Assembly (NCBI GenBank): GCA_013822265.1
Contig: PNKD01000029.1
Coordinates: 1-35,349 of the forward strand
DNA from: Leptothrix sp. (in: b-proteobacteria)
GTDB lineage: Bacteria; Pseudomonadota; Gammaproteobacteria; Burkholderiales; Burkholderiaceae_C
DNA length: 35,349 bases
Direction of reading: 5' to 3'
Part shown: in pieces, positions 13,461 through 33,919 of the stretch
Position numbering within the stretch: the first letter of the stretch is position 1
How the letters are laid out: each line of letters starts with the position of its first letter
Made by a program: the position numbers and the translations under genes
The notes under the pieces: generated by a model
The model's input: only the letters and a program-made list of their open reading frames with translations
Told to the model about the DNA's origin: nothing
Database searches by the model: none

Positions 13461-13474
13461 CTGATCCACGTCAA
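13461..13474 (-). promoter_or_regulatory. FNR/CRP-type box upstream of hoxK
   Basis: On the minus strand this reads TTGACGTGGATCAG, an FNR/Dnr-like inverted repeat (TTGAC-N4-RTCAR), centred about 106 nt before the hoxK ATG. It is nearly the same as the boxes before the PsrA-like and YeeE genes. A convincing -10 at the class II distance is not seen (the best hexamer there is weak), so the exact promoter is unsettled. The regulator itself is not encoded in the window. Confidence 0.6.
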
Positions 13475-14029: not shown

Positions 14030-14068
14030 CGCGGCAGCCCACGCGCGGCGAGCACGCCGGTGCGGCAC

Positions 14069-16042: not shown

Positions 16043-17590
16043 ATGGAGCCCAAGGTCACTTCCGCCGATGACGGCGTCGACGAGGGCACCGCCGCGGCGC
16101 TGGCCCCGCAAGTGCCCGCCACGGCGCGCATGCTGGTGTTCGGCGCCACCGGCTACATCGGCAGCCATCTCGTGCCGCGCCTGCTGCGCGAGGGCTGCGC
16201 GGTGCGCGCCAGCGGCCGCAACCGCAAGACGCTGGAGGCGCGCGGCTGGGCCGGCGCCGAGCTCGTCGAGGCCGACGCGCTGCAGCCGGCCACGCTGGGC
16301 CCGGCGCTGCGGGGCGTTGACACCGCCTACTACCTCGTGCATTCGATGGCCGCCGGCCGCAATTTCGGCGCGCTGGACCTCGAGGCGGCGCAGAACTTCG
16401 CTGCCGCGGCGGCCTCTGCCGGCGTGCGGCGCATCGTCTACCTGGGCGGGCTGATCCCCGACGATCCGAAGTCGGAGCACCTGGTGTCGCGGCGCGACAC
16501 GGGTGTCTGCCTGCGCCAGGGGCCGGTGCCGGTGACGGAGGTGCGCGCCGGCATCATCGTCGGGCCCGGCTCGGCGGCCTACGAGGTAATACGCGACCTC
16601 GTCAACCACCTGCCGCTGATGCTCACGCCGCGCTGGGTCGACTCGCGCTCGGCGCCCATCGCGCTGGACAACCTGCTCGAATACATGGTGCGCCTGCCGC
16701 ACATCGACGAGGCCGCCGGCCAGGTGCTCGACGCCGCCGGCCCCGACTACATCAGCTACCGCGAGGTGATGCTGGCCTATGGCCGTGCGGTGGGCCGCAA
16801 GCCGGTGATCATCGCCGTGCCTTTCCTGTCGCCCACGCTGTCGTCGTACTGGCTGGGGCTGGTGACGGCGGTGCCGGCGAGCATCGCGCGCGCGCTCATC
16901 GGCGGGCTCAAGCACGACCTGCCGGCCGACAACGGCCCCATCCAGCGCCTCGTGCCGCAGCACCTGCTCTCGTTCGGCGAATCGCTGCAGGCGGCGCTGG
17001 ATGCCGAGCGCCGGCAGCAGGTGGCCGCGCGCTGGACCGAAGGGCTGCTGATGTTCCGCGGCTTTTCCATCGACAACGCCTACTACGCCAAGCGCGCCGG
17101 CGGCGCGGCCGAGTCCGCGGCGTCGCCCGAGGCGCTGTGGCGCATCGTCAGCACGCTGGGCGGCGACAGCGGCTACTTCTACATGGGCTGGCTGTGGTGG
17201 GTGCGCGGCTTCCTGGACTGGCTCATCGGCGGCCCCGGGCTGACCAAGGGCCGGCGCCACCCCACCGAGTTGCGCCTGGGCGACCGCGTCGACTACTGGA
17301 CGGTGCTGGGCATCGAGCAGTGCCACCGCCTGACGCTGAACTTCGGCATGCGTTCGCCGGGCTCGGGCGTGCTCGAGTTCGAGATCGACCCGCTGCCCAG
17401 CACGGCCGAAGGCGAGCGCCGCACGCGCATCGGCGTCACGGCCTACTGGCACCCGCAGGGCGTGTGGGGCCTGATGTACTGGTACGTGCTGGTGCCGGCG
17501 CACCTGTTCCTGTTCAAGGGCATGACACGCGCCATCGCGCGCCGCGCCGAGGCGCTGGGTGTATCGCCGGCAGCGCCGGCCGACCGTTGA
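16043..17590 (+). CDS. SDR-family NAD(P)-binding protein with C-terminal DUF2867
   Basis: N-terminal Rossmann domain of the atypical SDR type (MLVFGATGYIGSHLVPRLL, then YYLVHSMAAG and RIVYLGGLIPD), followed by a C-terminal DUF2867 domain (FYMGWLWWVRGFLDWL, GDRVDYWTVLGIEQ, GVTAYWHPQGVWGLMYWY). The substrate is unknown; family members resemble NmrA-like or complex I assembly-type proteins. 515 aa from the ATG at 16043, which has AGGGAA 12 nt upstream; an in-frame ATG at 15992 would add 17 residues. The stop codon lies inside the FNR-type box of the next gene. Confidence 0.83.
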   Translation: MEPKVTSADDGVDEGTAAALAPQVPATARMLVFGATGYIGSHLVPRLLREGCAVRASGRNRKTLEARGWAGAELVEADALQPATLGPALRGVDTAYYLVHSMAAGRNFGALDLEAAQNFAAAAASAGVRRIVYLGGLIPDDPKSEHLVSRRDTGVCLRQGPVPVTEVRAGIIVGPGSAAYEVIRDLVNHLPLMLTPRWVDSRSAPIALDNLLEYMVRLPHIDEAAGQVLDAAGPDYISYREVMLAYGRAVGRKPVIIAVPFLSPTLSSYWLGLVTAVPASIARALIGGLKHDLPADNGPIQRLVPQHLLSFGESLQAALDAERRQQVAARWTEGLLMFRGFSIDNAYYAKRAGGAAESAASPEALWRIVSTLGGDSGYFYMGWLWWVRGFLDWLIGGPGLTKGRRHPTELRLGDRVDYWTVLGIEQCHRLTLNFGMRSPGSGVLEFEIDPLPSTAEGERRTRIGVTAYWHPQGVWGLMYWYVLVPAHLFLFKGMTRAIARRAEALGVSPAAPADR

Positions 17591-17600
17591 CCTGCGTCAA
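17587..17600 (+). promoter_or_regulatory. FNR/CRP-type box and -10 upstream of the cyclic-nucleotide-fold gene
   Basis: TTGACCTGCGTCAA is a perfect FNR/Dnr-type inverted repeat (TTGAC-N4-GTCAA), overlapping the stop of the SDR gene. A TATCGT hexamer at 17622-17627 begins 28.5 nt after the box centre, within about 1 nt of the spacing expected for a class II activated promoter (box at -41.5). This is the best formed of four such boxes in the window. Confidence 0.7.
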
Positions 17601-17672: not shown

Positions 17673-18164
17673 ATGACCGCATGCCCACCCGACCTGCGCA
17701 CCGCCACCCGTGCCTGCCGACTGGCCGAAGGCCTGAACGACGAGCAAACGGCCGCGCTCGCCGGTGTGCTGACGCTGCAGCCCTGCGAAGCCGGCGAAGT
17801 GCTGGCGCGCGAGGGCACGGTCGACAACCACCTCTACGCCATCGTCGACGGCACGCTGGCCATCGTCAAGCAGCCCGGCCAGCCCGGCGAAGAGACGCTG
17901 ATCACGCTGAAGGCCGGCGACCTGGTGCACGAGCTGGGCTTCCTGGACGGCAAGCCGCGCTACGCCTCGCTGCGCGCCGCAAGCGAGGCGCATGTGCTGG
18001 TGCTGGAACGCGAGGGCCTCGAGTCGCTGATCGACAGCCACCCCCGTGTGCTGTATGCGGTGATGCGCACCATCCTGCGCACCGGCCACACGATGCAGAC
18101 GCGGCTGGCGGTGCAGGCGGCCGAGCTGACGAACTACATCGTCAAGCAGCACGGGCGGTATTGA
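17673..18164 (+). CDS. Stand-alone cyclic-nucleotide-binding-fold protein, no DNA-binding domain
   Basis: 163-aa protein with the beta-barrel fold of CRP/FNR effector domains (LQPCEAGEVLAREG, NHLYAIVDGTLAIVKQ, LITLKAGDLVHELGFLDG, ASLRAASEAHVLVLE) and a long C-terminal helix. It ends where CRP-type regulators would begin their helix-turn-helix, so it should not bind DNA itself. The phosphate-binding cassette is only partly kept (HELGFLDGKPRYASLRA), so nucleotide binding is uncertain. GAGG lies before the ATG. It is preceded by the FNR-type promoter at 17587 and followed after 112 nt by the HdrD/FadF-like gene, which it may modulate or sense for. Confidence 0.82.
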   Translation: MTACPPDLRTATRACRLAEGLNDEQTAALAGVLTLQPCEAGEVLAREGTVDNHLYAIVDGTLAIVKQPGQPGEETLITLKAGDLVHELGFLDGKPRYASLRAASEAHVLVLEREGLESLIDSHPRVLYAVMRTILRTGHTMQTRLAVQAAELTNYIVKQHGRY

Positions 18165-18167
18165 CTT

Positions 18168-18215
18168 GCCCCCGAGCTCGCTCGCGCTCGCTACCCCCCA
18201 GGGGGGCCGTCCGCC
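18168..18215. repeat. Intergenic palindromic repeat, copy A
   Basis: Starts GCCCCCGAGCTCGCTCGC and contains CTACCCCCCAGGGGGGCC. It has the same layout as the repeat at 27703-27752: a GCCCCC start, a GCTC-rich middle, then a C6 run followed by G-rich palindrome. I recognise this from memory as a dispersed intergenic repeat type of Burkholderiales genomes. It lies between the cyclic-nucleotide-fold gene and the Hdr-like gene and may act as a transcript hairpin. Confidence 0.55.
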
Positions 18216-18276
18216 CATGGCCCGGCAGAGCCGGTTCCATGGCGGGAAGCTTGGTCGCTGACGCCGTGCGGCCAGG

Positions 18277-20280
18277 ATGAGTCCGCTGGGCATCAGCCTG
18301 CTGATGGTGGCCGCGCTGGCCGGCTTCGGCTGGGGCGTGTGGCGCAAGCTGGCCATCGTGCTGGCGCTGCAGCCTGCGGTGCGCTGGGACGCGCCGGCGC
18401 AGCGGCTGCACAGCGTGCTCGGCAACGGCCTGCTGCAGCGGCGCATGCTGCGGTTCGAGTGGAAGCCGGGGCTGATGCACGCCGTGATCTTTCTCGGCTT
18501 CATGTCGCTGCTGCTGCGCAAGCTGCAGCTCATCGCCATCGGCTACAGCGAGAGCTTCGCCTTCGTGCCCTGGTTCGGCGGGCCCTTCGCGGCCTTCAAG
18601 GACTTCGTCGAGGTGGCGGTGACGCTGGCCGTGCTGTATGGCCTGTGGCGCCGCTTCGTGCTGCGCCCGGCGCGGCTGGAACCCAACCGCGAGGCCGTGC
18701 TGGTGCTGGGTCTCATCGGGGCCATCATGCTCACCGACTTCGCCTTCGATGGCCTGCGTTTCGCGCTGCTGGCCGAACACTGGCCGGCCATCGCCCACGA
18801 GCGCGACTGGGCGTTCGCCGGCAGCGCCGTCGCGGCGGCCTTCCAGGGCCTGCCCACGGCCACGCTGCACACCGCCTACACGGGCTTTTACTGGGCGCAG
18901 ATGGCGCTGGTGTTCGGCTTCCTGGTGCTGCTGCCGCTGGGCGAGCACTTCCACATCGTCACGGCGCTGCCGGCGCTGTTCCTGCGCCGCGGCCGGCCGG
19001 CGAACCGTGTGCCCTCGGTCGACATCGAGCGGCTCATGGAAGCCACCGACGAGGCCGACATGAAGGCCGGCGTGCGCACCGCGCGCGACCTGCTCTGGAA
19101 GGACGCCTTCGATGTCTTCACCTGCACCGAGTGTGGGCGCTGCAAGGACGCCTGCCCGACGCACCTGACGGGCAAGCCGCTGTCGATGAAGGGCGTGAAC
19201 GACAGCCTCAAGCACCATCTCGTCGAACAGCGTGCGGCGCTGGTCGGCGCCGACGCCAAGGCCGAACTGCCGCCGCTGGTGGGCCCGGTGATCGGCCCCG
19301 ACACGCTGTGGGCCTGCACCAGCTGCGGCTACTGCGAGGCGGCCTGCCCGATCGAGCTCGAGCACCTCGACCGCTTCTTCCGCCTGCGCCAGCACCAGGT
19401 GATGATCGAAGGCGAGTTTCCGCACGAGCTGAAGAAGGTCTACGAGGCCTACGAAGCCCAGGGCAACCCCTGGGGCCTGCAGGCCGCGCAGCGCGGCGAC
19501 TGGGCGCAGGGCCTGGGCGTGAAGCAGGTGCGATCGGCGCAAGACATGGCCGGGCTGGAGTTGCTGTTCTACGTCGGCAGCGCGATGAGCTTCGACCCGC
19601 GCGGCCAGAAGATCGCGCGCGCCTTCGTCGCCATCCTGCAGCGTGCCGGCGTGCGCTTCGGCATGCTGGGCGCCGACGAGGGCAGCACCGGCGAGTGCGT
19701 GCGCCGCACCGGCAACGAGATGCTGTTCCAGCAGCTGGCGACTTCACTGGCGGGCAGGCTGAACGAACGCGGCGTGAAGCGCATCGTCACCTGCGACCCG
19801 CATGCGATGAACAGCCTGCGCAACGAGTACCCCGAGTTCGGCGGCCACTACGAGGTCGTGCACCACACACAGCTGATCGCCGAGCTGCTGGCGCAGGGGC
19901 GCATCCAGGTGGGCGCGGCGCTGCAGCGCGTGGTCTTCCACGACCCCTGCTATCTCGGCCGCCACAACGGCGAGTTCGAGGCCCCGCGCGCGGTGCTGGC
20001 GCGGCTGTGCGCCGACACGCCGCTGGAGATGTCGCTCAGCCGCGAGAAGGCCATGTGCTGCGGCGCGGGCGGCGGCCGCATGTGGATGGAAGAGACGCTG
20101 GGCAAGCGCATCAACGTGCTGCGGGTCGAGCAGGCGCTGGCCGTCTCGCCGCAGACCATCGCCACGGCCTGCCCGTATTGCGCCGTGATGGTGGGTGACG
20201 GGCTGGGCGCGCTGGTGGACGCGACGGCACGCTCGCGCGACATCGCCGAACTGGTGGCCGAGGCGCTGGTCGACGGCTGA
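18277..20280 (+). CDS. HdrD/FadF-like membrane iron-sulfur oxidoreductase
   Basis: 667-aa fusion protein. Residues ~1-245 form a NarI-like membrane domain of about five to six helices. Two [4Fe-4S] motifs follow (CTECGRCKDACP from residue 283, CTSCGYCEAACP from residue 347). The C-terminal half is a CCG-type domain pair as in heterodisulfide reductase subunit D: the second is intact (DPCYLGRHN, CCGAGGG at 594-595, ACPYC), while the first is degenerate (EGSTGECVRRTGNE where CCG is expected). Relatives pass electrons between quinone and a soluble partner such as ETF or a thiol/disulfide; the partner here is unknown. It lies 112 nt after the cyclic-nucleotide-fold gene. Confidence 0.88.
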   Translation: MSPLGISLLMVAALAGFGWGVWRKLAIVLALQPAVRWDAPAQRLHSVLGNGLLQRRMLRFEWKPGLMHAVIFLGFMSLLLRKLQLIAIGYSESFAFVPWFGGPFAAFKDFVEVAVTLAVLYGLWRRFVLRPARLEPNREAVLVLGLIGAIMLTDFAFDGLRFALLAEHWPAIAHERDWAFAGSAVAAAFQGLPTATLHTAYTGFYWAQMALVFGFLVLLPLGEHFHIVTALPALFLRRGRPANRVPSVDIERLMEATDEADMKAGVRTARDLLWKDAFDVFTCTECGRCKDACPTHLTGKPLSMKGVNDSLKHHLVEQRAALVGADAKAELPPLVGPVIGPDTLWACTSCGYCEAACPIELEHLDRFFRLRQHQVMIEGEFPHELKKVYEAYEAQGNPWGLQAAQRGDWAQGLGVKQVRSAQDMAGLELLFYVGSAMSFDPRGQKIARAFVAILQRAGVRFGMLGADEGSTGECVRRTGNEMLFQQLATSLAGRLNERGVKRIVTCDPHAMNSLRNEYPEFGGHYEVVHHTQLIAELLAQGRIQVGAALQRVVFHDPCYLGRHNGEFEAPRAVLARLCADTPLEMSLSREKAMCCGAGGGRMWMEETLGKRINVLRVEQALAVSPQTIATACPYCAVMVGDGLGALVDATARSRDIAELVAEALVDG

Positions 20281-23395: not shown

Positions 23396-23599
23396 TGGAT
23401 CCTCCGTGGTAACTGATCTCCGGGGTGGCCTCAATGTGCCTACCCCTGAGTGAATGCTCGGCACCGCGACACGCGGCCGCGTTGAGCCTGCGCACTGCCG
23501 TTGCTGTGGCCGCGGGCCGCGTTGCCGCCGCGCCACGGCTTGTGCGAACGCCCCGATCGGGCACACTGCCGGCTGGACTTCACAGCCGCCGACCGCCGC

Positions 23600-25300
23600 G
23601 TGCCCAGACCCGACGCAAGACAACCCAAGTTCGAGCCGGGCCGGCGCCGTGTGGCCGCGGCGCTGGCCGTGGGCTGCTGCGCGGCGTGGTGGCGCGCCGC
23701 CGGCGCCGCCGGCGGCCCGGCCCGGCCTGCGAGCCCGGCGGCACCCCTGCTGCGCGGGCTGGACGGCTGGCGCTTCGCGGTCGAAACGCGAAACGCTCAG
23801 GTTCAGCGTTATGCCGACCAGGGCGTGCTGCTGGTCTACGGCTTCAATCCCGAGGAGGCCGCGCGATCACTGCAGGCGGCGGTGGCACTGGAGCCCCGCT
23901 GCGCCAGCGCCTGGTGGGCGCTGGCCTGGGCGCTGGGGCCGAACATCAACAGCGACATGGCGCCCGACGCTGCGCCGCGCGTCGCCGAGGCGCTGCGCCA
24001 GGCGCGTGCCCATGCCGGGCGCGCGACACCTGTGCGGCGGGCACTCATCGAAGCCCTCTCGCTGCGCCACCCGCCGGGGCGCGACATCGATGAAGAGGCC
24101 TACGCGCAGCGCATGCGGGCACTGGCGCGCCGGCACACGCGCGACGCCGACGTGGCGCTGCTGGCCGCCGAATCGCTGCTCAACCTGCACCCCTACGACT
24201 GGTGGCAGCCCGACGGCCGCGCGCAGCCCTGGACACCGCAGATCGAGGCCCTGCTGCGGCGCGCGATGGCGCTGCAGCCACGCCACCCCGGCGCACACCA
24301 CTACTGGATTCACCTGCAGGAGTCGTCGCCGCATCCGGCGCGCGCGCGTGCCAGCGCCGACCTGCTGCGCCATGCCTTTGCGGGCTCGGGCCACCTGCTG
24401 CACATGGCCTCGCACATCGACATGCGCACAGGGCGCTTCGACGAGGCCATCGCCGCCAACCAGCGCTCGATCGCTGCCGACGAAGCCTATCTCGCGCAGG
24501 TCGACGCGCTGGGTGCCTACCGCGTGGGTTACGTGGCGCACAACCACCACTTCCTGTGGGCGGCGGCGGGCATGGCCGGGCGCCAGACGCTGGCGCTGGA
24601 GGCCGCGCAGGCGGCGTGGCCGGCGGCCTGCGGGCCGGCGCGGCGCGACCCCGGCACGGCCATCGTGCAGCAGTACGCCGTGCTGCCTTACTTCACGCTG
24701 GTGCGCTTCGGCCAGTGGGACGCGCTGCTGCGCGGCACCGCGCCGCCCGACGGGGCCGCGCCCTATCCGCTGGCCATCTGGCACTTCGCGCGCGGCACGG
24801 CGTTGGCGCGCAGCGGGCAGGGCGCTGCGGCGCGGCAGGAACTGGCGCGGCTGCAGGCGCTGGCGGCCGATCCGGCGTTGGCGGGCTTTCGTCTGAAGAA
24901 CATCCATCCGGCGTCGCAGTTGGTACAGATCGCGGTGCTCACGCTGCAGGCCGAACTGCATCTGGCGAAGGGCGAAAGAGGCGACACGCCGGCCGCGGTG
25001 GCGCTGCTGCGCGAGGCGACAGCCGTGGAAGACGCGCTGGCCTACGACGAACCCCACCTGTGGCTGGCGCCGACGCGGCACGCCCTGGGCGCCGCGCAGC
25101 TGGCCGCGGGGCAGCCGGGCGCGGCGGCCGAGGTCTATCGCCAGGACCTGCGCCACTACCCTGGCAACGGCTGGTCACTGGGCGGGCTGGCGCAGGCGCT
25201 GCGGGCCCTTGGGCAGCGTGCCGAGGCGGCGACGGCCGACGCCGAGGCCAGGCGAGCCCTTGCCGGCGCCGAACGGCTGCCGTCGGGCTCGCGGTTCTGA
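23600..25300 (+). CDS. Exported TPR-repeat protein
   Basis: About 566 aa of alpha-helical tetratricopeptide-like repeats: AARSLQAAVALEPRCASAWWALAWALG early, GRFDEAIAANQRSI in the middle, and AAEVYRQDLRHYPGNGWSL near the end (each a helix-pair signature). Several HxxH-like stretches occur (HHYWIHLQES, LLHMASHIDMRTGR, NHHFLW). The N-terminus has basic residues then a hydrophobic run with LAVGC, so it is probably exported, perhaps as a lipoprotein. The start is uncertain: GTG at 23600 is chosen since it gives the signal a normal length; GTG at 23651 and an upstream ATG at 23501 are alternatives. No specific function is assigned. Confidence 0.72.
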   Translation: MPRPDARQPKFEPGRRRVAAALAVGCCAAWWRAAGAAGGPARPASPAAPLLRGLDGWRFAVETRNAQVQRYADQGVLLVYGFNPEEAARSLQAAVALEPRCASAWWALAWALGPNINSDMAPDAAPRVAEALRQARAHAGRATPVRRALIEALSLRHPPGRDIDEEAYAQRMRALARRHTRDADVALLAAESLLNLHPYDWWQPDGRAQPWTPQIEALLRRAMALQPRHPGAHHYWIHLQESSPHPARARASADLLRHAFAGSGHLLHMASHIDMRTGRFDEAIAANQRSIAADEAYLAQVDALGAYRVGYVAHNHHFLWAAAGMAGRQTLALEAAQAAWPAACGPARRDPGTAIVQQYAVLPYFTLVRFGQWDALLRGTAPPDGAAPYPLAIWHFARGTALARSGQGAAARQELARLQALAADPALAGFRLKNIHPASQLVQIAVLTLQAELHLAKGERGDTPAAVALLREATAVEDALAYDEPHLWLAPTRHALGAAQLAAGQPGAAAEVYRQDLRHYPGNGWSLGGLAQALRALGQRAEAATADAEARRALAGAERLPSGSRF

Positions 25301-25378: not shown

Positions 25379-25392
25379 TTGACCTGGGTCAG
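25379..25392 (+). promoter_or_regulatory. FNR/CRP-type box upstream of the PsrA-like gene
   Basis: TTGACCTGGGTCAG, differing at one position from the box before the YeeE gene. Its centre is 28.5 nt upstream of the TACCCT hexamer at 25414, close to the ideal for activation from -41.5. This implies induction under oxygen limitation if an FNR/ANR-type protein binds it. Confidence 0.65.
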
Positions 25393-25412: not shown

Positions 25413-25428
25413 ATACCCTATGGGGCAT
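25413..25428. promoter_or_regulatory. 16-bp palindromic operator, copy 1 (before PsrA-like gene)
   Basis: ATACCCTATGGGGCAT, an imperfect palindrome identical at 14 of 16 positions to the site at 31277-31292. It covers the predicted -10 element, which suits a repressor. Palindromes with C- and G-runs around an A/T centre are typical of CsoR-family operators, and a CsoR-family gene lies at 33629. Confidence 0.6.
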
Positions 25429-25498
25429 CGGAACGCGGCACCGCCGGGCAGGGCCGATAGGGCTGGCAAGGCGGTGCGGCAAGACGCTGAGGTACCCC

Positions 25499-27697
25499 AT
25501 GCAAGCACTCTCGCGCCGGCGCTTTCTCGCCATCTCCACCGCCACCGTTGGCGCCACCGGCTTGGCCGGCTCCTGGCAGGCCTGGACGGGTGGGGCCCAG
25601 GCCGCGGCGCCGGCCGCGGGCACCGTGACGCAGATCCCCACCTTCTGCGAGATGTGCTTCTGGCGCTGCGGCGGCATCGCCCACCTGCGCGACGGCAAGC
25701 TGTGGAAGTTCGAGGGCAACCCGCGCGACCCGCAGAGCATGGGTCGGCTGTGCCCGCGCGGCACCGGCGCCGTCGGCGCGCATTACGACCCCGACCGTCT
25801 GCGCCAGCCGCTGCTGCGCGTGGGCGAGCGCGGCAAGGAACAGTGGAAGGCCGTGAGTTGGGACGAGGCGCTCTCCTTCGTCGCCGAGAAGATGAACAAG
25901 ATCAAGGCCGAGCACGGCCCGGAGTCGGTGGCGCTGTTCAACCACGGTTTCGGCCAGCGCTTCATCCAGCATGCGCTGAAGAGCTGGGGCGTCATCAACC
26001 ACGCCGGCTCGTCCTACGCGCAATGCCGCGGCGCGCGCGACGTGGGCTACATGCTGACCTACGGCGCCGGCGTCGGCAGCCCCGAGCCCATCGACATCAG
26101 GAGCACCGATTGCCTGGTGCTCATCGGCTCGCACCTGGGCGAGAACATGCACAACTCGCAGGTGCAGGAGTTCGCGCAGGCCGTCGAGCGCAAGGCCACG
26201 GTGATCGTCGTCGACCCGCGCTACTCGGTGGCGGCGAGCAAGGCCAAGTACTGGCTGCCGGTGAAACCCGGCACCGACCTGGCGCTGCTGCTGGCCTGGA
26301 TGAACCTGCTGGTCAGCGAGGGCCGCTACGACAAGGCCTTCGTCGAGCGCTACGGCCACGGCTTCGACAAGTTCGTCGCCGAGATCAAGGGCTACACCGT
26401 CGAGTGGGCGGCCGAGCAGTGCGACGTGCCGGCCGAACTGATCCGCGCCGCGGGGCGCGAGATGGCCCGCCACCGGCCGGCGTCCGTCGTGCACCCGGGG
26501 CGGCGCTTCAACTGGTACGGCGACGACACCCAGCGCAGCCGCGGCATCGCGCTGCTCAACGCGCTGCTCGGCAACTACGGCCGCAACGGCGGCATGTTCA
26601 TCTCGCAGGGCATCAAGATCGCGCCCTATCCGCTGCCCAAGTACCCCGAGCACACCAGGCCGCGGCTGGACGGCGCCGAGGCCGACCAGTACCCGTTTGC
26701 CGACGAGGGCATCACCACCAGCATCCGCGACGCCACGATCAGCGGCAAGCCGTACCCGGTGAAGGGCTGGTTCGTCTACTCGACCAACCTGATGCAGGCG
26801 CTGCCGAACGAGGCCGAGACCATCAAGGCGATCCAGAACCTGGACCTGCTGGTGGTCTGCGACACCGTGCCCGGTGAAACGGCGGGCTGGGCCGACGTCG
26901 TCCTGCCCGACACCGTCTTCCTCGAGCGCCACGACGAACTGCTGACGGGCTTCGGTCGCAACGGCTGGGCCTCGCTGCGCCAGCCCGTGGTGGCCGCGCC
27001 GCACGACCAGAAGCCGGCGTGGTGGATCGCCAAGCAGCTGGCCGAGAAGCTGGGCGTCGGTGCCTGCATGCCCTTCAAGGACATGGAAGAGTACCTGTCG
27101 CTGCGCGTCGAGAAGTCGGGCCACAGCTGGGAGAAGCTGAAGACCGAAGGCGTGATCATGGCCGCGCACCAGCCGATCACGGTCGAAGAGGGGCTGGAAC
27201 TGGAGTTCGCCACGCCCAGCGGCAAGGTCGAGTTCTGGTCCGACCAGCTGGCCGCCAAGGGCTTCGACGCCGTGCCCAGGTACACCAGGCACCCCGAGGC
27301 ACCCGCCGGGCACTTCCGCCTCATCACCGGGCGCTCGCCGGTGCACACCTTCAGCCGCACGCAGAGCAACCCGCTGCTGCAGGACTTGATGCCCGACAAC
27401 GAGGTGTGGGTGAACAACGCCACGGCCGCGAAGCTGGGGCTGAAGAACCGCCAGTACGTGCGGCTGAAGAACCAGGACGGCGTGCTCAGCAACCGCATCC
27501 GCGTCAAGGCCACGCAGCGCATCCGCGAAGACACCGTCTACATGGTCTACGGCTTCGGCAACACCAACAAGATGCTGAAGTCGGCCTACCTCAAGGGCGC
27601 CAGTGCCGGGGGCTTGAACACCCACTACAAGACCGACCCGATCATGGGTGCGACCAGCATCCACACCAACTTCGTCGGTTTCGTCAAGGAGGCCTGA
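25499..27697 (+). CDS. PsrA/PhsA-type molybdopterin oxidoreductase, catalytic subunit
   Basis: Periplasmic bis-MGD enzyme (732 aa) of the polysulfide/thiosulfate reductase branch of the DMSO reductase family. It begins with a Tat signal (SRRRFLAI). The [4Fe-4S] ligands are Cys50, Cys53, Cys57 (CEMCFWRC) and Cys85 (GRLCPRG). The molybdenum ligand is Cys176 in SYAQCRGARDVGYM, as in PsrA and PhsA and unlike Ser-ligated DMSO reductase. Length matches PsrA/PhsA (~760 aa) and is too short for SoeA or TtrA. Polysulfide, sulfur and thiosulfate are all possible substrates; tetrathionate or arsenate is less likely. The ATG at 25499 follows GAGG; an upstream in-frame start would bury the Tat motif. Confidence 0.85.
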   Translation: MQALSRRRFLAISTATVGATGLAGSWQAWTGGAQAAAPAAGTVTQIPTFCEMCFWRCGGIAHLRDGKLWKFEGNPRDPQSMGRLCPRGTGAVGAHYDPDRLRQPLLRVGERGKEQWKAVSWDEALSFVAEKMNKIKAEHGPESVALFNHGFGQRFIQHALKSWGVINHAGSSYAQCRGARDVGYMLTYGAGVGSPEPIDIRSTDCLVLIGSHLGENMHNSQVQEFAQAVERKATVIVVDPRYSVAASKAKYWLPVKPGTDLALLLAWMNLLVSEGRYDKAFVERYGHGFDKFVAEIKGYTVEWAAEQCDVPAELIRAAGREMARHRPASVVHPGRRFNWYGDDTQRSRGIALLNALLGNYGRNGGMFISQGIKIAPYPLPKYPEHTRPRLDGAEADQYPFADEGITTSIRDATISGKPYPVKGWFVYSTNLMQALPNEAETIKAIQNLDLLVVCDTVPGETAGWADVVLPDTVFLERHDELLTGFGRNGWASLRQPVVAAPHDQKPAWWIAKQLAEKLGVGACMPFKDMEEYLSLRVEKSGHSWEKLKTEGVIMAAHQPITVEEGLELEFATPSGKVEFWSDQLAAKGFDAVPRYTRHPEAPAGHFRLITGRSPVHTFSRTQSNPLLQDLMPDNEVWVNNATAAKLGLKNRQYVRLKNQDGVLSNRIRVKATQRIREDTVYMVYGFGNTNKMLKSAYLKGASAGGLNTHYKTDPIMGATSIHTNFVGFVKEA

Positions 27698-27702
27698 AAT
27701 GA

Positions 27703-27752
27703 GGCCCCCACGCTCACTTCGATCACCGCCCCCCGAGGCGGCGCAAGTCCCC
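27703..27752. repeat. Intergenic palindromic repeat, copy B
   Basis: Begins GGCCCCCACGCTCACTTCG and contains CCGCCCCCCGAGGCGG. Just after it GTCCC-CTTT-GGGAC (27747-27760) makes a small hairpin. It shares its layout with copy A at 18168. It sits within the operon, between the PsrA-like and PsrB-like genes, so the repeat seems to have inserted without breaking the cluster; it may affect transcript stability. Confidence 0.55.
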
Positions 27753-27780
27753 TTTGGGACGACCCTGCAGGAGAGTTGAT

Positions 27781-28320
27781 ATGCCCCGCCTTGCCATGGT
27801 CATCGACACGCGAAAGTGCGTAGGCTGCCAGGACTGCGTCGTCGCCTGCCAGGTCGAGAACGACGTGCCGCTGGGCTACTGCCGCGACTGCATCGTCACC
27901 GAGGTGCGCGGCACCTTCCCGCAGCTCACGATGGAGATCCGCTCCGAGCGCTGCAACCACTGCGACAACCCGCCCTGCGTGAGCTGCTGCCCCACCGGCG
28001 CGAGCCACGTCGAGGACTTCGGCCGCACGGTGCAGGTCACGGCCAACAAGTGCATAGGCTGCAAGGCCTGCATCGCCGCCTGCCCCTACGACGCCCGCTG
28101 CGTGCACCCCGAAGGTTGTGTCGACAAATGCACCTTCTGCCTGCACCGCGTGAAAGAAGGCAAGGACCCGGCCTGCGTCTCGGTGTGCCCCACGCACTGC
28201 ATGCATTTCGGCGATCTCGACGACCCGAAGAGCGCGGTGAATGCGCTGCTGGCCACGCGCAAGCACCACACGCTGCTGCCCGAAGCCGGCACCAAGCCGC
28301 GCATCTTCTACCTGACCTGA
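27781..28320 (+). CDS. PsrB-type ferredoxin subunit with four [4Fe-4S] clusters
   Basis: 179-aa electron-transfer subunit linking the molybdopterin subunit to the membrane subunit. Cysteine groups are CVGCQDCVVAC, CNHCDNPPCVSCCP, CIGCKACIAACPYDARC and CTFCLHRVKEGKDPACVSVCP, the DmsB/PsrB pattern for four cubane clusters. An extra CRDC lies near residue 35. It carries no signal of its own, so it is probably exported with the Tat-carrying catalytic subunit. The ATG at 27781 follows a strong GGAGAG. Confidence 0.92.
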   Translation: MPRLAMVIDTRKCVGCQDCVVACQVENDVPLGYCRDCIVTEVRGTFPQLTMEIRSERCNHCDNPPCVSCCPTGASHVEDFGRTVQVTANKCIGCKACIAACPYDARCVHPEGCVDKCTFCLHRVKEGKDPACVSVCPTHCMHFGDLDDPKSAVNALLATRKHHTLLPEAGTKPRIFYLT

Positions 28321-28333
28321 AGGAGCAGCCGCC

Positions 28334-29386
28334 ATGCTCGAGTTCACCACCACGCGCCACAACCCGCTCGTCGACCCGCAGCTGGCGGTGTGGAGTTGGG
28401 AGATCCCGCTCTACCTCTTCGTCGGCGGCATCGTCGCCGGCATGATGGTCATCGGCGGCCTGGCCATGCTGCGGCTGGCCAAGGGCGAGGACACGCGCCG
28501 CTACTTCTCGATGCAGACCCCGCTGCTGGCCTTCGTGCTGATGAACGTCGGCATGCTGGCGCTGCTGCTCGACCTGACGCACAGGCTCTACGTCTGGCGC
28601 ATCTACCTGACCTTCCAGGTCACGTCGCCTATGGCCTGGGGCTCGTGGGTGCTGATCATCGTCTACGGCGTGCTGCTGGTCTCGGCGCTGATCCGCCTGC
28701 CGCAGGCCTGGCCGTGGCTGGGCCGCACCGTGCCGGCGCTTCAGCGCCTGTCGGACACCCTCACCGGCAGCCCGTCGTGGCTGCGCGTGCTGGGCTGGGC
28801 CAACCTGGGCCTGGGCATCGCGCTGGGCATCTACACCGGCATCCTGCTCAACACCATGGTCGCGCGACCGCTGTGGAACAGCGCCATCCTCGGCCCCCTG
28901 TTCCTGGTCTCGGGCCTGTCGGCGGGTGTGGCCGCGATGCACATCGCCGCCACGCTGCTGCAGGGCCGCCGTGCGCCGCAGGGCTTGGTGGGCGGCGCGC
29001 TCTCGGCGATGCTGCAACCCCTGGGCCCGCGCCACCCCGACGCCGACACGGCGCACTCGCTGGTGCGCTACGACCAGATGTTCCTGGTGGCCGAGCTGGT
29101 GTTCATCTTCATCCTGCTCGTCAACCTCCACACCTCGTCGGCTTCGCACGCGGTGGCGGCCTCGCTCATCACCACAGGGCCCTACGCGCTGGCCTTCTGG
29201 GGCGGCGTTGTCGTGGCCGGCGTGCTGCTGCCGCTGGCCTGGCAGGCGCTGGAGCTCTCGCAAACGGTCAGGCACACCGTGGCGCCGGCCGTGCTGGTGC
29301 TGGTGGGCGGCTACACGCTGCGCTGGATCATGGTCAACGCGGGCCAGGCCAGCGAGATCGTGCCCGTGCTGTCGCTGGCGCACTGA
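28334..29386 (+). CDS. PsrC/NrfD-type membrane quinone subunit
   Basis: 350-aa integral membrane protein of the NrfD/PsrC family with about eight or nine helices. Family features include PLYLFVGGIVAGMMVIGG in the first helix, a block with LLLDLTHRLYVWRIYLTFQ and TSPMAWGSWVL, and GIYTGILLNT. It should exchange electrons with ubiquinone or menaquinone at the periplasmic face and pass them to the ferredoxin subunit. AGGAG precedes the ATG; it lies 13 nt after the ferredoxin subunit gene. Confidence 0.92.
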   Translation: MLEFTTTRHNPLVDPQLAVWSWEIPLYLFVGGIVAGMMVIGGLAMLRLAKGEDTRRYFSMQTPLLAFVLMNVGMLALLLDLTHRLYVWRIYLTFQVTSPMAWGSWVLIIVYGVLLVSALIRLPQAWPWLGRTVPALQRLSDTLTGSPSWLRVLGWANLGLGIALGIYTGILLNTMVARPLWNSAILGPLFLVSGLSAGVAAMHIAATLLQGRRAPQGLVGGALSAMLQPLGPRHPDADTAHSLVRYDQMFLVAELVFIFILLVNLHTSSASHAVAASLITTGPYALAFWGGVVVAGVLLPLAWQALELSQTVRHTVAPAVLVLVGGYTLRWIMVNAGQASEIVPVLSLAH

Positions 29387-29448
29387 ACCTGCGCGCCAGC
29401 GCAGCGCGTGCACCGACGCTTCGACAACAAGAACCGTCAAGGATCCCC

Positions 29449-29631
29449 ATGAAGCTCACTCGCCGAACCCAAGAAGCCTCACCCCTCGCCCTGGCGATGG
29501 TCGCGCTGCCCGCGCTGGCCACCGACGGCGTGCTGATGGAGGGCTACGGCCCCATTTCCACCGCCATGGGCGTGCTCGTCACGCACACGCAGACCAACGC
29601 CCAGCCGATGTACTCGCACCGTTTCCAGTGA
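29449..29631 (+). pseudogene. Short remnant resembling the N-terminus of a FadL/OmpP1-type outer-membrane channel
   Basis: The 60-residue frame has a leader-like start (SPLALAMVALPALA) followed by TDGVLMEGYGPISTAMG, which resembles the start of mature FadL/OmpP1-family channels (ATDG...GYG...GMGG). Instead of the expected ~400-residue barrel, the frame switches to THTQTNAQPMYSHRFQ and stops. This looks like an internal deletion joining the two ends of a channel gene. The ribosome site is weak. It could instead be a genuine small exported protein. Confidence 0.45.
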
Positions 29632-29710
29632 GGTTCGCGCGGCGCGGGTGGGCCGCACACGGGCCCGGCGCGCGCCGCGGGTTCCTGCCGTCTACCAAGA
29701 ATGGTCCAAC

Positions 29711-31111
29711 ATGTTTCGCACCACCCTGATGGCCACGCTCGCGCTGGGCGTGCAACTGGCCTTTGCACAGGCGACCGCGGCGCCCGCTGCGGCCCCGGCC
29801 GAGCCGGCCAAGCCACCCCAGCCGGCCATGTGTACGGCCTGCCACAAGCTCGAGGCCAACCAGGTCGGTGGCTACTTCGAGTCGGTGGCCTTCAAGTCGC
29901 TGTCGATGCAGATCGACGTCGGCGGCAAGGCGCCGCAGCTCCTGCGCTTCGATGCCAAGACGCTGAAGGTCGTCGACGACGGGGTCGACAAGAAGGCCGA
30001 ACACCTGCGCGACGTGAAGGCGCGCCACGAGACCCAGGTCACATGGGTCGAGAAGGACGGCGCCAAGTTCGCCACCGAGATCCACTTCGAGGGGCCCGTC
30101 AAGATCGACCCGAAGAACCTCATCGACTGCGCCGGCGTGGCCAAGCTGGTGAATGAAGGCCCGGGCAAGACGCCGTTCACGCTGATCGACTCACGCCCGC
30201 TGGTGCGCTTCCAGGAAGGTGCGCTGCCCGGTGCCATCCATCTGCCCTTCATCGGCTTCGACAGGTTCGCCGACCGCCTGCCCAGGGACAAGGCGCAGCT
30301 CGTCGTCTTCTACTGCGGCGGCATCACCTGCACGCTGAGCCCGAACTCGCTGAAGAAGGCGCAGCGGATGGGCTACGGCAACCTGCGTGTCTACCGCGAG
30401 GGCGAGCCCGAGTGGAAGACGCGCAACCCTCTCGTCACCACGCCGGCCTTCGTCAAGGCGGCCTACGTCGACCGCGACATCCCGCACGTGATGATCGACG
30501 CGCGCACGGCCGACGACGCGGCCAGCAGCCACGTCAAGGGCGCCGTCTCGATGCCGCTGGGGCAGATGGCCGCGGTGCGCAAGTCGCTGCCCGACCGGAA
30601 GCTGAAGGCGCCGCTGATCGTCTACGACGGCCGCGGCGGCGAGCAGGCCGTGGCGGTGGCGGAAGCGCTGGTCAAGGCCGGCCGGCGCAACGTGATGGTG
30701 CTGAGCGGCGGCATGGTCGGCTGGCCGGCGGCGGCCTACGCCATCGAGAGCGGCGTGCCGGCGCCCAGGCAGATCGCCTACGCGCCCAAGCCGCGCGCCG
30801 GTTCGCTGCCGGTGGCCGAGTTCACGACGCTGGCCAGGAAGACGCCGGCCGACGTGCTGATCCTCGACGTGCGCAACCCCGACGAGGCGCAGCAGGGCAT
30901 GATCAAGGGCGCCATGCTGATCCCTGACGACGAGTTGCAGGCTCGCATCGCCGAGCTGCCCAAGGGCAAGCGCATCGTCGCGCATTGCCTCACCGGCATC
31001 CGCGCGGAGATGGCCTATCACAAGCTCAAGGAAGCCGGCTTCCAGGTCGCGTTCCTGAACAACGAGATCGAGATCGCCAAGGACGGCAGCTTCAAGATCA
31101 CGCCGCGCTGA
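29711..31111 (+). CDS. Periplasmic protein with a haem c site and three rhodanese domains
   Basis: 466 aa with a signal peptide (MFRTTLMATLALGVQLAFA). A CTACH haem c motif lies at 41-45 in a small N-terminal domain. Three rhodanese domains follow: the first with an active-site loop CGGITC (Cys202) after DSRPLVRFQEGALPGAIHLP; the second (DARTADDAASSHVKGAVSMP) has Asp306 where the catalytic Cys should be; the third (LDVRNPDEAQQGMIKGAMLIP) has HCLTGIR with Cys426. It probably binds and transfers sulfane sulfur in the periplasm with a redox role for the haem. The ATG at 29711 has only a weak ribosome site; it lies 79 nt after the FadL-like remnant and follows the PsrABC-like genes. Confidence 0.85.
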   Translation: MFRTTLMATLALGVQLAFAQATAAPAAAPAEPAKPPQPAMCTACHKLEANQVGGYFESVAFKSLSMQIDVGGKAPQLLRFDAKTLKVVDDGVDKKAEHLRDVKARHETQVTWVEKDGAKFATEIHFEGPVKIDPKNLIDCAGVAKLVNEGPGKTPFTLIDSRPLVRFQEGALPGAIHLPFIGFDRFADRLPRDKAQLVVFYCGGITCTLSPNSLKKAQRMGYGNLRVYREGEPEWKTRNPLVTTPAFVKAAYVDRDIPHVMIDARTADDAASSHVKGAVSMPLGQMAAVRKSLPDRKLKAPLIVYDGRGGEQAVAVAEALVKAGRRNVMVLSGGMVGWPAAAYAIESGVPAPRQIAYAPKPRAGSLPVAEFTTLARKTPADVLILDVRNPDEAQQGMIKGAMLIPDDELQARIAELPKGKRIVAHCLTGIRAEMAYHKLKEAGFQVAFLNNEIEIAKDGSFKITPR

Positions 31112-31180
31112 AACGGCGCGCCGCGGCACTTGCGGCCCCGCGGCGCGACACCTTGGTGCCGTGGCCGCCGTGGCCGACGC

Positions 31181-31194
31181 TTGACCTGGATCAG
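31181..31194 (+). promoter_or_regulatory. FNR/CRP-type box upstream of the YeeE gene
   Basis: TTGACCTGGATCAG. Its centre is about 103 nt before the predicted start site of the YeeE promoter (-35 TGGACG 31256-31261, 17-nt spacer, -10 TACCAT 31279-31284), one of the distances at which class I CRP/FNR activation can work. No good -10 is seen at the class II distance. Confidence 0.55.
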
Positions 31195-31276
31195 CACATG
31201 CCCAGGTGCTGCCGGCCGCGCTGAATTCATGACCTACCAACGCCCCCCCCAGGACTGGACGTTCCATCTTTCTTTG

Positions 31277-31292
31277 ATACCATATGGGGTAT
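31277..31292. promoter_or_regulatory. 16-bp palindromic operator, copy 2 (before YeeE gene)
   Basis: ATACCATATGGGGTAT, an imperfect palindrome matching copy 1 (25413-25428) at 14 of 16 positions. It covers the -10 TACCAT and the likely transcription start, leaving a leader of about 17 nt with a GGAGA ribosome site at 31294. A protein bound here would block transcription. Confidence 0.62.
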
Positions 31293-31307: not shown

Positions 31308-31868
31308 ATGAACACCCTGACCCACGCGCCGCTGCGCACATCGGCGGTCGCCGACAAGGCGGTCGCGAAAGCCTTCATGAACCCCTACCTGGCCGGCTTC
31401 CTGCTCGGCCTGGTGCTGCTGACGACCTACGTCGTCACCGGCCGCGGCCTGGGCGCCACGGCAGGATTCGCCGCCGTGGCCACCTGGCTGGCCGGGATCG
31501 TCGACGTCGAGCACATGCAGCAAAGCCTGGTGCACCTCAAGTACTGGAACGACGGCCAGCCGCTGCTGAACTGGACCCTGTTCCTGCTCGTCGGCGCCCT
31601 GGCCGGCGCGGCGCTGTCGGGCTGGCAGGCGAACCGCATCCGCCTCACCACCGAGCGTGGTCCGCGCATCACCGACCGGCAGCGCCTCGTGCTGGCCTTC
31701 GTCGGTGGTTTCATCGCCGCGTTCGGCGCCAAGCTGGCCAAGGGTTGCACCAGCGGCCAGGCGTTGACCGGTTCGGCCGCGCTGAACGTCAGCGGGCTGG
31801 TTTTCCTGGGGGCCGTCTTCCTGGCGGCCTTCATCGTGGCGCAGTTCGTGCGCAAGGAGTGGTTGTGA
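31308..31868 (+). CDS. YeeE/YedE-family sulfur-compound transporter, first half
   Basis: 186-aa membrane protein with about four or five helices, of the YeeE/YedE (TsuA-like) family that carries thiosulfate or related sulfur compounds through conserved cysteines. The signature is LAKGCTSGQALTGSAALN, with Cys147 the only cysteine. The start at 31308 (MNTLTHAPL) has GGAGA nine nt upstream. Its stop overlaps the next gene's start by one base (TGATG), so the two halves are probably made together and pair in the membrane. Confidence 0.87.
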   Translation: MNTLTHAPLRTSAVADKAVAKAFMNPYLAGFLLGLVLLTTYVVTGRGLGATAGFAAVATWLAGIVDVEHMQQSLVHLKYWNDGQPLLNWTLFLLVGALAGAALSGWQANRIRLTTERGPRITDRQRLVLAFVGGFIAAFGAKLAKGCTSGQALTGSAALNVSGLVFLGAVFLAAFIVAQFVRKEWL

Positions 31869-32464
31869 TGTTCCCGCTGTCCAGCTATCACGAGTTCTCG
31901 GCCGTTGCCGAGCTGGCCATCGCGCTGGCCTTGGGCGTGGGCTTCGGCTTTGCGCTCGAGCGCGCCGGTTTCGGCAGCGCACGCAAGCTCACTGCCGTGT
32001 TCTACCTCTACGACATGGCGGTCGTGAAGGTGATGTTCAGCGCCGTCGTCACCACGCTGGTCGGCCTGGCGCTGCTGTCGGGCGCGGGGCTGTTCGACAT
32101 GTCGGAGATCTACCTCGAGCAGACCAACTGGACGGCGCAGATCGGCGGCGGCCTGCTCTTCGGTGCCGGCTTCGTGATCGGCGGCTACTGCCCAGGCACC
32201 TCGATGGCGGCCGTCGCCACCGGGCGCAAGGACGGCATGCTGTTCGTGCTGGGCATGCTGGCCGGCGTATGGGCCTATGCCGAATTCACCCCCGGCCTTG
32301 ACGAGTGGTACAAGGCCACGGCCTCGGGCGTCATCACCTTGCCTGAAGCCACCGGCATCGCAATGGGATGGTGGGCGCTGGCCTTCGTCGCCGTGCTGGC
32401 GTTCGGCGCCTGGGGCATGGCCCGGCTCGAGCGGCGTTTCAGCTACCTCGATCCGCAGGCATGA
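31868..32464 (+). CDS. YeeE/YedE-family sulfur-compound transporter, second half
   Basis: 198-aa membrane protein with about five helices. It carries FALERAGFGSARKLTAVFY and the signature VIGGYCPGTSMAAVATGRKDG, with Cys108 the only cysteine. Together with the gene before it, it makes up the two-part form of the YeeE/YedE transporter; single-chain relatives contain both halves. The likely cargo is thiosulfate or another sulfane-sulfur compound, inferred from the rhodanese and Psr-like neighbours. Confidence 0.88.
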   Translation: MFPLSSYHEFSAVAELAIALALGVGFGFALERAGFGSARKLTAVFYLYDMAVVKVMFSAVVTTLVGLALLSGAGLFDMSEIYLEQTNWTAQIGGGLLFGAGFVIGGYCPGTSMAAVATGRKDGMLFVLGMLAGVWAYAEFTPGLDEWYKATASGVITLPEATGIAMGWWALAFVAVLAFGAWGMARLERRFSYLDPQA

Positions 32465-32550: not shown

Positions 32551-33564
32551 ATGACCATGAAGCTGGTTCGCCTGGCCGCCGGGGCCCTGCTGGCGCTGGG
32601 CCTGCAGACGGCCTTCGCCCAGAACCTGATCGTCGACACCGCGGCCGTCGAGGCGGCGATCAAGCGCGGCGCGGTCGTCTGGGACTCGCGCGATGCCGAC
32701 GACTACGCCGCAGGCCACATCGCCGGGGCGGTGAACTTCGGCGCCGCCGGCGACCTGTTCCGCGACGCCAACCGTGAAGACCCGCCCTCGGCCGCCGTGG
32801 CGGCGCTGCTGTTCGGCAACGCCGGCATCGACATCGTCAACAAGGAAGTCGTCGTCTACGGCGGCAAGGGCGACCCCTATGCCTACTACGCGGCGCGCAT
32901 GCTCGAGTACTACGGCGGCAAGCACGGCAAGGTCTACCACGGCGGCATCGACGACTGGAAGGCGGCCGCCAAGCCGATGAGCACCCAGGCGACGACGCTG
33001 CCGCCGGTCAAGCTGACCTTGAACGCCGAGCGCATCGGCACGCTCTGGACCAACGACGTCATTGACCGCGTGCGCAGCGGCGGCGCGCAGATCGTCGACG
33101 TCCGCACGCCCAAGGAATACAACGGCGAAGACGTTCGCGCCATCCGCGGCGGCCATGTGCAGGGCGCCGTCAACCTGCCCTACGAGGGCAACTGGGTCGA
33201 CCCGGCGACCCCGGGCAAGCTCGCCGCCAAGAAGGTGAGCAACAAGGACGGCATGTCGCTCAAGCCCGCCGAGGATCTCAAGGCGATGTATGCCAAGCTC
33301 GACCCGGCCAAGGAAACCGTCGTCTACTGCCAGAGCGGCGTGCGCGCCTCGGAGACGGCGGCCGTGCTGCGCGACATCGGGTTCTCCAACGTCAAGGTCT
33401 ACGAGCCGTCGTGGCTGGGTTATGCCGGTGTGCTGTCGGCGCCGGCGGCCGACGAGGTGTTCGTCAACGTCGGTGCGCTCAACGGCCGCATCGGTTCGCT
33501 GCAGAACAAGGTACGCTCGCTGGAGGCGGAACTGGCGAAGCTGCAACAGGCGGGCAAGCGCTGA
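32551..33564 (+). CDS. Periplasmic tandem rhodanese (sulfurtransferase) with coiled-coil tail
   Basis: 337 aa with a signal peptide (MTMKLVRLAAGALLALGLQ, cleavage near AFAQ). Two rhodanese domains: the first (WDSRDADDYAAGHIAGAVNF) lacks the catalytic Cys (VVYGGKGDPYAY), the second (VDVRTPKEYNGEDVRA, then VVYCQSGVRASETA) has Cys260, the only cysteine in the protein. This is the usual inactive/active pairing of thiosulfate sulfurtransferases. The C-terminal ~35 residues (IGSLQNKVRSLEAELAKLQ) form a predicted coiled coil, so it may oligomerise or dock to a partner. A strong AGGAG precedes the ATG. Confidence 0.9.
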   Translation: MTMKLVRLAAGALLALGLQTAFAQNLIVDTAAVEAAIKRGAVVWDSRDADDYAAGHIAGAVNFGAAGDLFRDANREDPPSAAVAALLFGNAGIDIVNKEVVVYGGKGDPYAYYAARMLEYYGGKHGKVYHGGIDDWKAAAKPMSTQATTLPPVKLTLNAERIGTLWTNDVIDRVRSGGAQIVDVRTPKEYNGEDVRAIRGGHVQGAVNLPYEGNWVDPATPGKLAAKKVSNKDGMSLKPAEDLKAMYAKLDPAKETVVYCQSGVRASETAAVLRDIGFSNVKVYEPSWLGYAGVLSAPAADEVFVNVGALNGRIGSLQNKVRSLEAELAKLQQAGKR

Positions 33565-33628: not shown

Positions 33629-33919
33629 ATGGCCCTGCTGACCAGCGACGACCACCGCACCGACCTGTTGAACCGCCTCAAGCGTGCAGAGGGGCAGCTG
33701 CGCGGCATCCAGCGCATGATCAGCGAAGGTGAATCCTGTCTCGATGTCGCCGGGCAGATGGCCGCGGTGCGCAAGGCGCTCGACAGCGCCTACGTGCGCA
33801 TGACGGTGTGTTTCATGCAGCAGGAGATGCGGGCCCGGGTCGGCATCGAGCACGGCCGCGAGGCCGAGATGGAGTCGTTTCTCGACGAGGTGCAGACGCT
33901 GCTGGGCAAGGTGCGCTGA
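33629..33919 (+). CDS. CsoR-family (DUF156) repressor with atypical Cys37/Cys61 pair
   Basis: 96-aa all-helical regulator of the CsoR/RcnR/FrmR/CstR family (LLNRLKRAEGQLRGIQRMI, ESCLDVAGQMAAVRKALD). Only two cysteines are present, Cys37 and Cys61. Cys37 matches the conserved first ligand, but the copper-site His and second Cys of CsoR (61 and 65 in M. tuberculosis) are Phe62 and Glu66 here, so copper sensing is unlikely. A two-Cys form next to rhodaneses suggests CstR-like persulfide sensing; spacing differs from CstR (24 against 29). The ATG at 33629 follows AGGAAAC. The likely targets are the two 16-bp palindromes at 25413 and 31277. Confidence 0.88.
   Translation: MALLTSDDHRTDLLNRLKRAEGQLRGIQRMISEGESCLDVAGQMAAVRKALDSAYVRMTVCFMQQEMRARVGIEHGREAEMESFLDEVQTLLGKVR

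Follow-up and report, generated by a model that had tools for sequence, protein, structure and literature searches.

Putative CsoR-type operators and FNR-type boxes at a PhsA/YeeE sulfur module of a Leptothrix sp.

The 35,349-nucleotide contig PNKD01000029.1 of a Leptothrix sp. (assembly GCA_013822265.1; this whole stretch is referred to here as the window) encodes a sulfur module that runs from a PhsA/PsrA-like molybdopterin oxidoreductase gene (phsA) to a predicted operon made of yeeE, yedE, a rhodanese gene and, in last position, the gene for a small CsoR-family protein, P0001. Two 16-bp palindromes stand before phsA and before yeeE and, as judged from their sequence and their distribution, they are very probably operators of P0001. 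The model proposed here combines repression by P0001 through these sites, relief of that repression by reactive sulfur and activation by an FNR-type protein, and we give it as a whole a probability of about 0.7. The elements involved are the following.

25413 to 25428, no strand assigned: palindrome 1, putative operator ATACCCTATGGGGCAT; the start codon of the phsA-like gene lies 86 bp past its start.
31277 to 31292, no strand assigned: palindrome 2, putative operator ATACCATATGGGGTAT; the yeeE start codon lies 31 bp past its start, and AGGAG abuts its end.
25379 to 25392, forward strand: FNR/CRP-type box TTGACCTGGGTCAG; palindrome 1 starts 34 bp after the start of the box.
31181 to 31194, forward strand: FNR/CRP-type box TTGACCTGGATCAG; palindrome 2 starts 96 bp after the start of the box.
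33629 to 33919, forward strand: gene for the CsoR/RcnR-family (DUF156) regulator P0001.

The first-pass annotation had described the two 16-mers as imperfect palindromes matching at 14 of 16 positions, and their sequence, coordinates and identity all proved exact; each is self-complementary at 12 of 16 positions. When the joint pattern was searched in the window with up to three mismatches, only these two sites were returned (four rows, counting both strands), and dinucleotide shuffles gave a mean of 0.20 matches, with four reached in 0 of 100. The earlier statement that there is no third copy can be extended to the whole genome (4.38 Mb in 251 contigs, 97% complete), in which the pattern ATACCC-N4-GGGTAT (ATACCCNNNNGGGTAT), with one mismatch allowed, returns palindromes 1 and 2 and nothing else. 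Twelve more places lie at two mismatches, and at up to three mismatches the genome showed no excess over the backwards pattern (267 vs 303), and thus no sign of a larger regulon within this genome. It is unlikely that palindrome 2 lies in a coding region: the in-frame ATG that it contains, at 31284, is not the probable start, as the homologues align from 31308.

The conservation of the site was assessed in 15 sulfur modules with readable promoters, the window included, which came from genus and family searches and from fetched stretches. Loci L035 and L067, being the same contigs as L177 and L178, were counted once; L034 (genome G457), cut before its promoter, was dropped; and the YeeE clusters of G091, G133 and G017 (about 40% identity), which represent a different operon, were handled separately. 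At least one promoter, that of phsA and/or yeeE, held the palindrome in 12 of the 15 modules. Counted by promoter region, 18 of 24 had it with at most two mismatches (14 with at most one), against none for the backwards control and a block-shuffle mean of 0.075; scattered matches within genes in a three-mismatch scan of the modules were left out of these counts. The palindrome was present in all five modules with a linked regulator of the sulfur clade and an uncut promoter (the window, L177, L178, L179 and L149), as well as in two (L187, L188) that adjoin a regulator-OsmC (RND) locus. The earlier attribution of the sites to CsoR-family operators withstood this check, the palindrome being kept in related loci that have the regulator gene. 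Modules L180 to L184 have the site and L150, L185 and L186 do not, and in none of these eight did the stretch read contain a linked regulator, which indicates that linkage alone is not decisive. No DUF156 gene was found in G411, the genome of L185, at a completeness of 73%, and the genomes of L150 (G059) and L186 (G412) have one elsewhere. The position of the site followed the gene order: where yeeE precedes phsA in one gene run (L181, L183, L187, L188), it was found before yeeE only, and in the eight palindrome-bearing modules in which phsA comes first it was found at phsA in all eight and at yeeE in six.

A second body of evidence came from loci encoding relatives of P0001, of which the best 80 of 228 were taken. 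The symmetrised first consensus gave 27 sites vs 0 for the backwards pattern at one mismatch, and 62 vs 1 at two. With a free centre and the four-base spacer, 79 sites were found in 63 of the 80 loci at one mismatch (four sites in the control), and spacers of 0–3 and 5–8 bases yielded 0–4 sites each; at two mismatches the corresponding figures were 120 vs 15 for the N4 spacer and 2–18 vs 1–14 for the others. Because the consensus was refined on these same 80 loci, the spacer count is partly circular, the counts at the modules and at the RND operons being less so. Only three of the 80 loci share the sulfur module, and most of the remainder are RND efflux operons of the order MFP-RND-regulator, often followed by OsmC. 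Upstream DNA was readable at 62 of the 77 non-sulfur loci (ten others showed no RND gene and five are cut), and in 57 of these 62 the palindrome, with one mismatch allowed, is found before the adaptor gene, no more than 1.6 kb upstream of the RND gene. Ten of the 57 have two sites, 18–31 bp apart, the distance being 24 bp in five (L038, L042, L077, L078 and L095). This pairing suggests paired repressor binding, and by analogy the doubled sites may be cooperative repressor arrays; in the available part of the work on Streptomyces lividans CsoR, two tetramers are described as sitting on one such site (PMC3902906).

In a sample of 200 genomes, the exact palindrome occurred in 25 and the backwards pattern in four. 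It was present in 12 of the 37 genomes with a close regulator (E ≤ 1e-20) vs 13 of the other 163 (p = 2.7e-4), and in 21 of the 68 with any CsoR-like match (E ≤ 1e-8) vs 4 of 132 (p = 5e-8). The 13 genomes without a close regulator are a poor fit, and nine of them have a more distant CsoR-like match. Ten neighbour proteins scanned at eight of these 13 sites comprised Sulf_transp, a peroxiredoxin, an epimerase, an HlyD adaptor, a histidine kinase, a response regulator, a peptidase, CMD and two without an assigned family. In one genome, G023 (L241, position 2500), the exact palindrome has a different, more distant CsoR-family gene on one side and a Sulf_transp (YeeE-like) gene on the other, which makes it probable that the operator type is shared beyond the P0001 clade.

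The regulator-bearing genomes of this sample were also surveyed for exact palindromes at targets in trans, and 21 sites in 12 genomes were obtained. The palindrome precedes an octaheme tetrathionate-reductase-family cytochrome gene with YeeE/YedE behind it in G133 (and, with one mismatch, in G091), a TsdA/SoxA-like cytochrome gene in G159, and rhodanese genes in G059, where an FAD-dependent oxidoreductase gene lies opposite, and in G002, where the site is common to a divergent HSP20 gene. Thioredoxin 2 genes (G125, G152) and a peroxiredoxin gene (G152) are preceded by it as well, and in G133 one exact copy stands about 330 bp before the regulator gene. RND-type operons were again among the targets, and other sites precede genes for MCP, DUF302, a TetR protein, an MFP/FMN-reductase pair and one protein without an assigned family. 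Apart from efflux, the commonest theme is sulfur and thiol redox, other themes being present too. Sites before ccoG, an accessory gene of cbb3 oxidase, at L145 and L155 (G133 and G159), hint that P0001-type regulators also touch oxygen respiration.

The gene placed at 33629 by the earlier annotation was borne out as a CsoR-family regulator, P0001 matching PF02583 (DUF156) with an E-value of 5.2e-20. Its structural model (pLDDT 85) shows three helices, and ranks 1–20 of a Foldseek search were all CsoR, CstR, FrmR or InrS chains, with probabilities of 0.99–1.00 and modest E-values (0.005–0.12). Residues R16 and R19 (the RLXR motif of helix 1) and Q43 (helix 2) were kept in all 98 aligned rows; by sequence they are the equivalents of the arginines and the glutamine needed for operator binding in S. 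lividans CsoR, of which, in the part of that report available, the R57A and Q81A variants gave no binding profile (PMC3902906). Cysteines C37 and C61 were conserved in 96 and 97 of the 98 rows, respectively. Gapless alignment to a Cys-His-Cys paralog puts the Cu(I) ligand places of P0001 at C37, F62 and E66, the last two standing where S. lividans CsoR has its His and second Cys ligands; these places hold F or Y in 96 and E or Q in 94 of the 98 rows. The InrS match introduces one gap there and points to M63 and M67, and neither alignment offers a ligand pair of the CsoR kind. Copper sensing by P0001 was rejected, its ligands being replaced by F62 and E66. Formaldehyde sensing by FrmR involves Pro2 together with Cys35, a feature that P0001, with Ala as residue 2, does not share; P0003 and P0016 have Pro at this place in alignment A1. 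C37 fits C31 of CstR, and the place of CstR C60, which we take to be equivalent to the second Cys of CsoR, is E66 in P0001, with C61 five residues earlier. In the regulator tree, the sulfur-linked regulators formed one supported group (96/83) of 8 of the 98 rows from seven genomes, the window's protein appearing twice and G468, with its module and its regulator on separate contigs, being included; the alignment is short, and L179 has a very long branch of unsure placement. Outside this group stand the regulators adjoining L187 and L188, both of them members of RND-OsmC loci.

FNR boxes are of the TTGAT-N4-ATCAA type, with their centre near position -41 in promoters of class II. Before phsA, the distance from box to palindrome is 34 bp in the window, L177, L178 and L179 and 35 bp in L149, and L180 has a two-mismatch box at 34 bp; in L182, L184, L187 and L188 a box lies 20–21 bp from the palindrome. 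The 96-bp offset of the box at 31181, before yeeE, is not conserved in relatives. A box with at most one mismatch was found in 15 of the 24 sulfur promoters and in 14 of the 18 that bear the palindrome, with none in the backwards control and a block-shuffle mean of 0.16; its start lies within 60 bp upstream in 12 of the 18, and in 11 the spacing is 34–35 or 20–21 bp. At the RND-type loci, 1 of 76 palindromes has such a box within 60 bp, about the background level (32/4000), so that the pairing of box and palindrome is not a general one. At nine trans sites that were checked, a box lies 39–40 bp upstream at L144, L147 and L152, 52 bp upstream at L155 and about 95 bp away at L243 and L153, and none was found at L145, L160 and L255. 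By analogy with class II promoters, a box near -41 would plausibly put palindrome 1 over the -10 element of an activated promoter, and the 20–21-bp arrangement would put the palindrome between -35 and -10. Co-activation of phsA by an FNR-type protein is likely; the 11 Crp/Fnr-type helix-turn-helix matches in the genome are at most candidates for the protein acting, and this family is also matched in all 14 control genomes.

Two further boxes were observed in the window. A perfect one, TTGACCTGCGTCAA (17587–17600, forward strand), lies about 80 bp before an open reading frame (ORF) at 17681–18280, with which an Fe-S/CCG-domain protein (18277–20280) stands behind the box, and its position makes another FNR-type target likely. 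The other, TTGACGTGGATCAG (13461–13474, reverse strand), lies about 105 bp upstream of the start of homology to the NiFe-hydrogenase small subunit, the long ORF start for which, at 14042, is probably wrong.

These observations can be arranged in the following model. With its thiols reduced, P0001 would bind ATACCC-N4-GGGTAT at or near the presumed core promoters of phsA and of the yeeE-yedE-rhodanese-regulator operon. The gene order, with P0001 encoded last in the latter, suggests that it would also repress its own gene through palindrome 2. Reactive (sulfane) sulfur would modify the thiols of C37 and C61 and release P0001 from DNA, and an oxygen-responsive FNR-type activator would probably act on the phsA promoter through the upstream box, so that the module would probably be expressed only at low oxygen and when reactive sulfur is present. 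Reactive sulfur is the effector we favour, with less assurance than the operators themselves. As with CstR persulfide sensors, the neighbourhood of P0001 holds sulfurtransferase genes, with two rhodanese genes and YeeE/YedE in the module.

Several points weigh against this model. The sites had been said to cover predicted -10 elements, and a sigma-70 consensus scan, which returned no promoter at either palindrome, did not confirm this. Two of the eight palindrome-bearing modules with phsA first lack the site at yeeE (L178, L180), and four of the 18 palindrome-bearing sulfur promoters have no FNR-type box within one mismatch. Module L186 has no palindrome and its genome (G412) has a DUF156 gene elsewhere, 56% identical; G059 has a regulator at an RND locus, yet its module L150 lacks the site. 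Conversely, G407 has the palindrome and no DUF156 gene was found in it, at a completeness of 78. Part of the loci counted had also served to refine the consensus, and the relatives, being close to one another, do not count as independent. The pair C37/C61 is not that of CstR. Finally, P0001 may answer to some thiol-reactive compound other than reactive sulfur, given that an RND pump accompanies most relatives and that part of the trans sites stand before genes with no sulfur connection.

This last point leads to the strongest of the alternatives, in which the palindromes are P0001 operators and C37/C61 react not with reactive sulfur but with an efflux substrate, electrophile or oxidant as the effector, the sulfur genes being induced within a general thiol-stress response. 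It agrees with the presence of an RND gene at 67 of the 77 non-sulfur regulator loci, often with OsmC, with the thioredoxin 2, peroxiredoxin, MCP, DUF302 and CcoG genes among the trans targets, and with TTHA1953 of Thermus thermophilus, whose hold on DNA is, in the available part of the report, weakened by disulfide formation and not by NaHS (PMC10318464). In contrast, a distinct regulator clade goes with the sulfur module, and octaheme tetrathionate-reductase-like, TsdA/SoxA-like and two rhodanese genes are found among the trans targets as well. On balance this alternative is unlikely.

It is much less probable that the sites are bound by another regulator, either an unrelated one or the product of the only other CsoR-family gene found in the genome:

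C28, 25088 to 25324; in locus L225, 7077 to 7352, reverse strand: second CsoR-family (DUF156) gene.

The existence of this gene speaks for such a reading, as do the exact palindromes that G023 and G012 have next to CsoR-like genes more distantly related. Nevertheless, the palindrome follows the relatives of P0001, and the paralog has the Cys-His-Cys pattern of metal sensors, adjoins a CusA/CzcA metal pump and has upstream a palindrome of its own, TATCCTATCCCCCAGGATAAGATA, four mismatches from the ATACCC-N4-GGGTAT core, which together make it an unlikely owner of palindromes 1 and 2. That the two 16-mers arose by chance, or are duplicated promoter sequence without operator function, would fit the one arm mismatch in each and the empty sigma-70 scans, but is scarcely credible given the 0.2 matches expected in the window, the empty backwards control and shuffle mean of 0.075 at the 24 promoters, the fixed spacer and positions, and the counts at regulator loci, modules and RND operons.

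The remaining genes of the module, all on the forward strand, are listed below.

25499 to 27697: PhsA/PsrA-like molybdopterin oxidoreductase with a Tat-like N-terminus.
27754 to 28320: NrfC-like 4Fe-4S subunit.
28334 to 29386: NrfD-like membrane subunit.
29648 to 31111: multi-domain rhodanese, in three stretches.
31308 to 31868: YeeE/YedE half-transporter 1 (Sulf_transp).
31868 to 32464: YeeE/YedE half-transporter 2.
32551 to 33564: two-domain rhodanese.

The best NCBIfam match of the first of these is thiosulfate reductase PhsA (536.7 bits, under the cut-off of 694). The gene directly upstream of phsA (23454–25300, forward strand) consists of two overlapping frames: one of 480 aa without a Pfam match, which has matches of 44–57% identity near the module in 8 of 17 loci, and one of 599 aa with weak TPR matches.

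Control of sulfur genes by CsoR-family proteins is already known from the sources available on CstR, YrkD and TTHA1953. CstR of staphylococci and enterococci and YrkD of Bacillus licheniformis answer sulfane sulfur, and in the text available they are, like P0001, CsoR-family repressors with two Cys encoded beside rhodanese and other sulfur genes (PMC5480029, PMC9405070, PMC9918477); the second input described for the YrkD cluster is the NreBC two-component system, that of the window's module being the FNR-type box. TTHA1953, as far as its report was available, resembles P0001 in being CsoR-like, associated with sulfur-oxidation genes, active on unlinked targets and Cys-dependent; it controls sox, and its Cys pair is C39 and C68 in the numbering of its own sequence (PMC10318464). 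Operators were compared with those of CsoR and TTHA1953. The type 2 operators of S. lividans CsoR (ATATACCCCTNAGGGGTATAT) share with the sites described here a TAC...GTA inverted repeat with C/G tracts, with the difference that, in the portion of the report available, they are TAC-X9-GTA and the window type is TAC-X8-GTA, with an N4 centre only (PMC3902906). The TTHA1953 operator given in the available text, TACNNTACNNNNGTANNGTA, lacks continuous G/C tracts, whereas the window sites and their relatives are ATACCC-N4-GGGTAT. As in FNR class II promoters, a TTGAC-N4-GTCAG-like box lies at a fixed distance from a putative core promoter; unlike them, this core promoter carries a putative CsoR-type operator.

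What goes beyond the first-pass annotation is the presence of FNR-type boxes, the constancy of the 4-bp spacer, the targets at RND operons and in trans, and the second CsoR-family gene with its different putative operator. No published account of a PhsA/YeeE module with such regulation was found among titles and abstract beginnings in the open literature, and as far as that literature shows, what is new lies in how the cysteines are arranged, in the X8 operator and its joint geometry with the FNR-type box, in the PhsA/YeeE link and in the use shared with RND operons; to our knowledge, no characterised CsoR-family member uses the C37/C61 pair. Tentatively, and at somewhat less than even odds, a proteobacterial CsoR branch may sense reactive sulfur by C37/C61, use an operator shorter by one bp, gate FNR-driven genes of sulfur-compound respiration and control an RND pump without FNR.

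Little is known, outside a few models, about the control of sulfur-reducing enzymes by sulfur compounds and low oxygen. Here, a defined operator and a small repressor co-occur in tens of loci, and nine sulfur modules add a second input at a fixed distance. For the many repressors labelled 'copper-sensing' or 'metal-sensing', of which those aligned here are without the copper site, this points to an operator and a possible signal. If the broader proposal were true, one sensor would join sulfur respiration and sulfur-related efflux in Burkholderiales.

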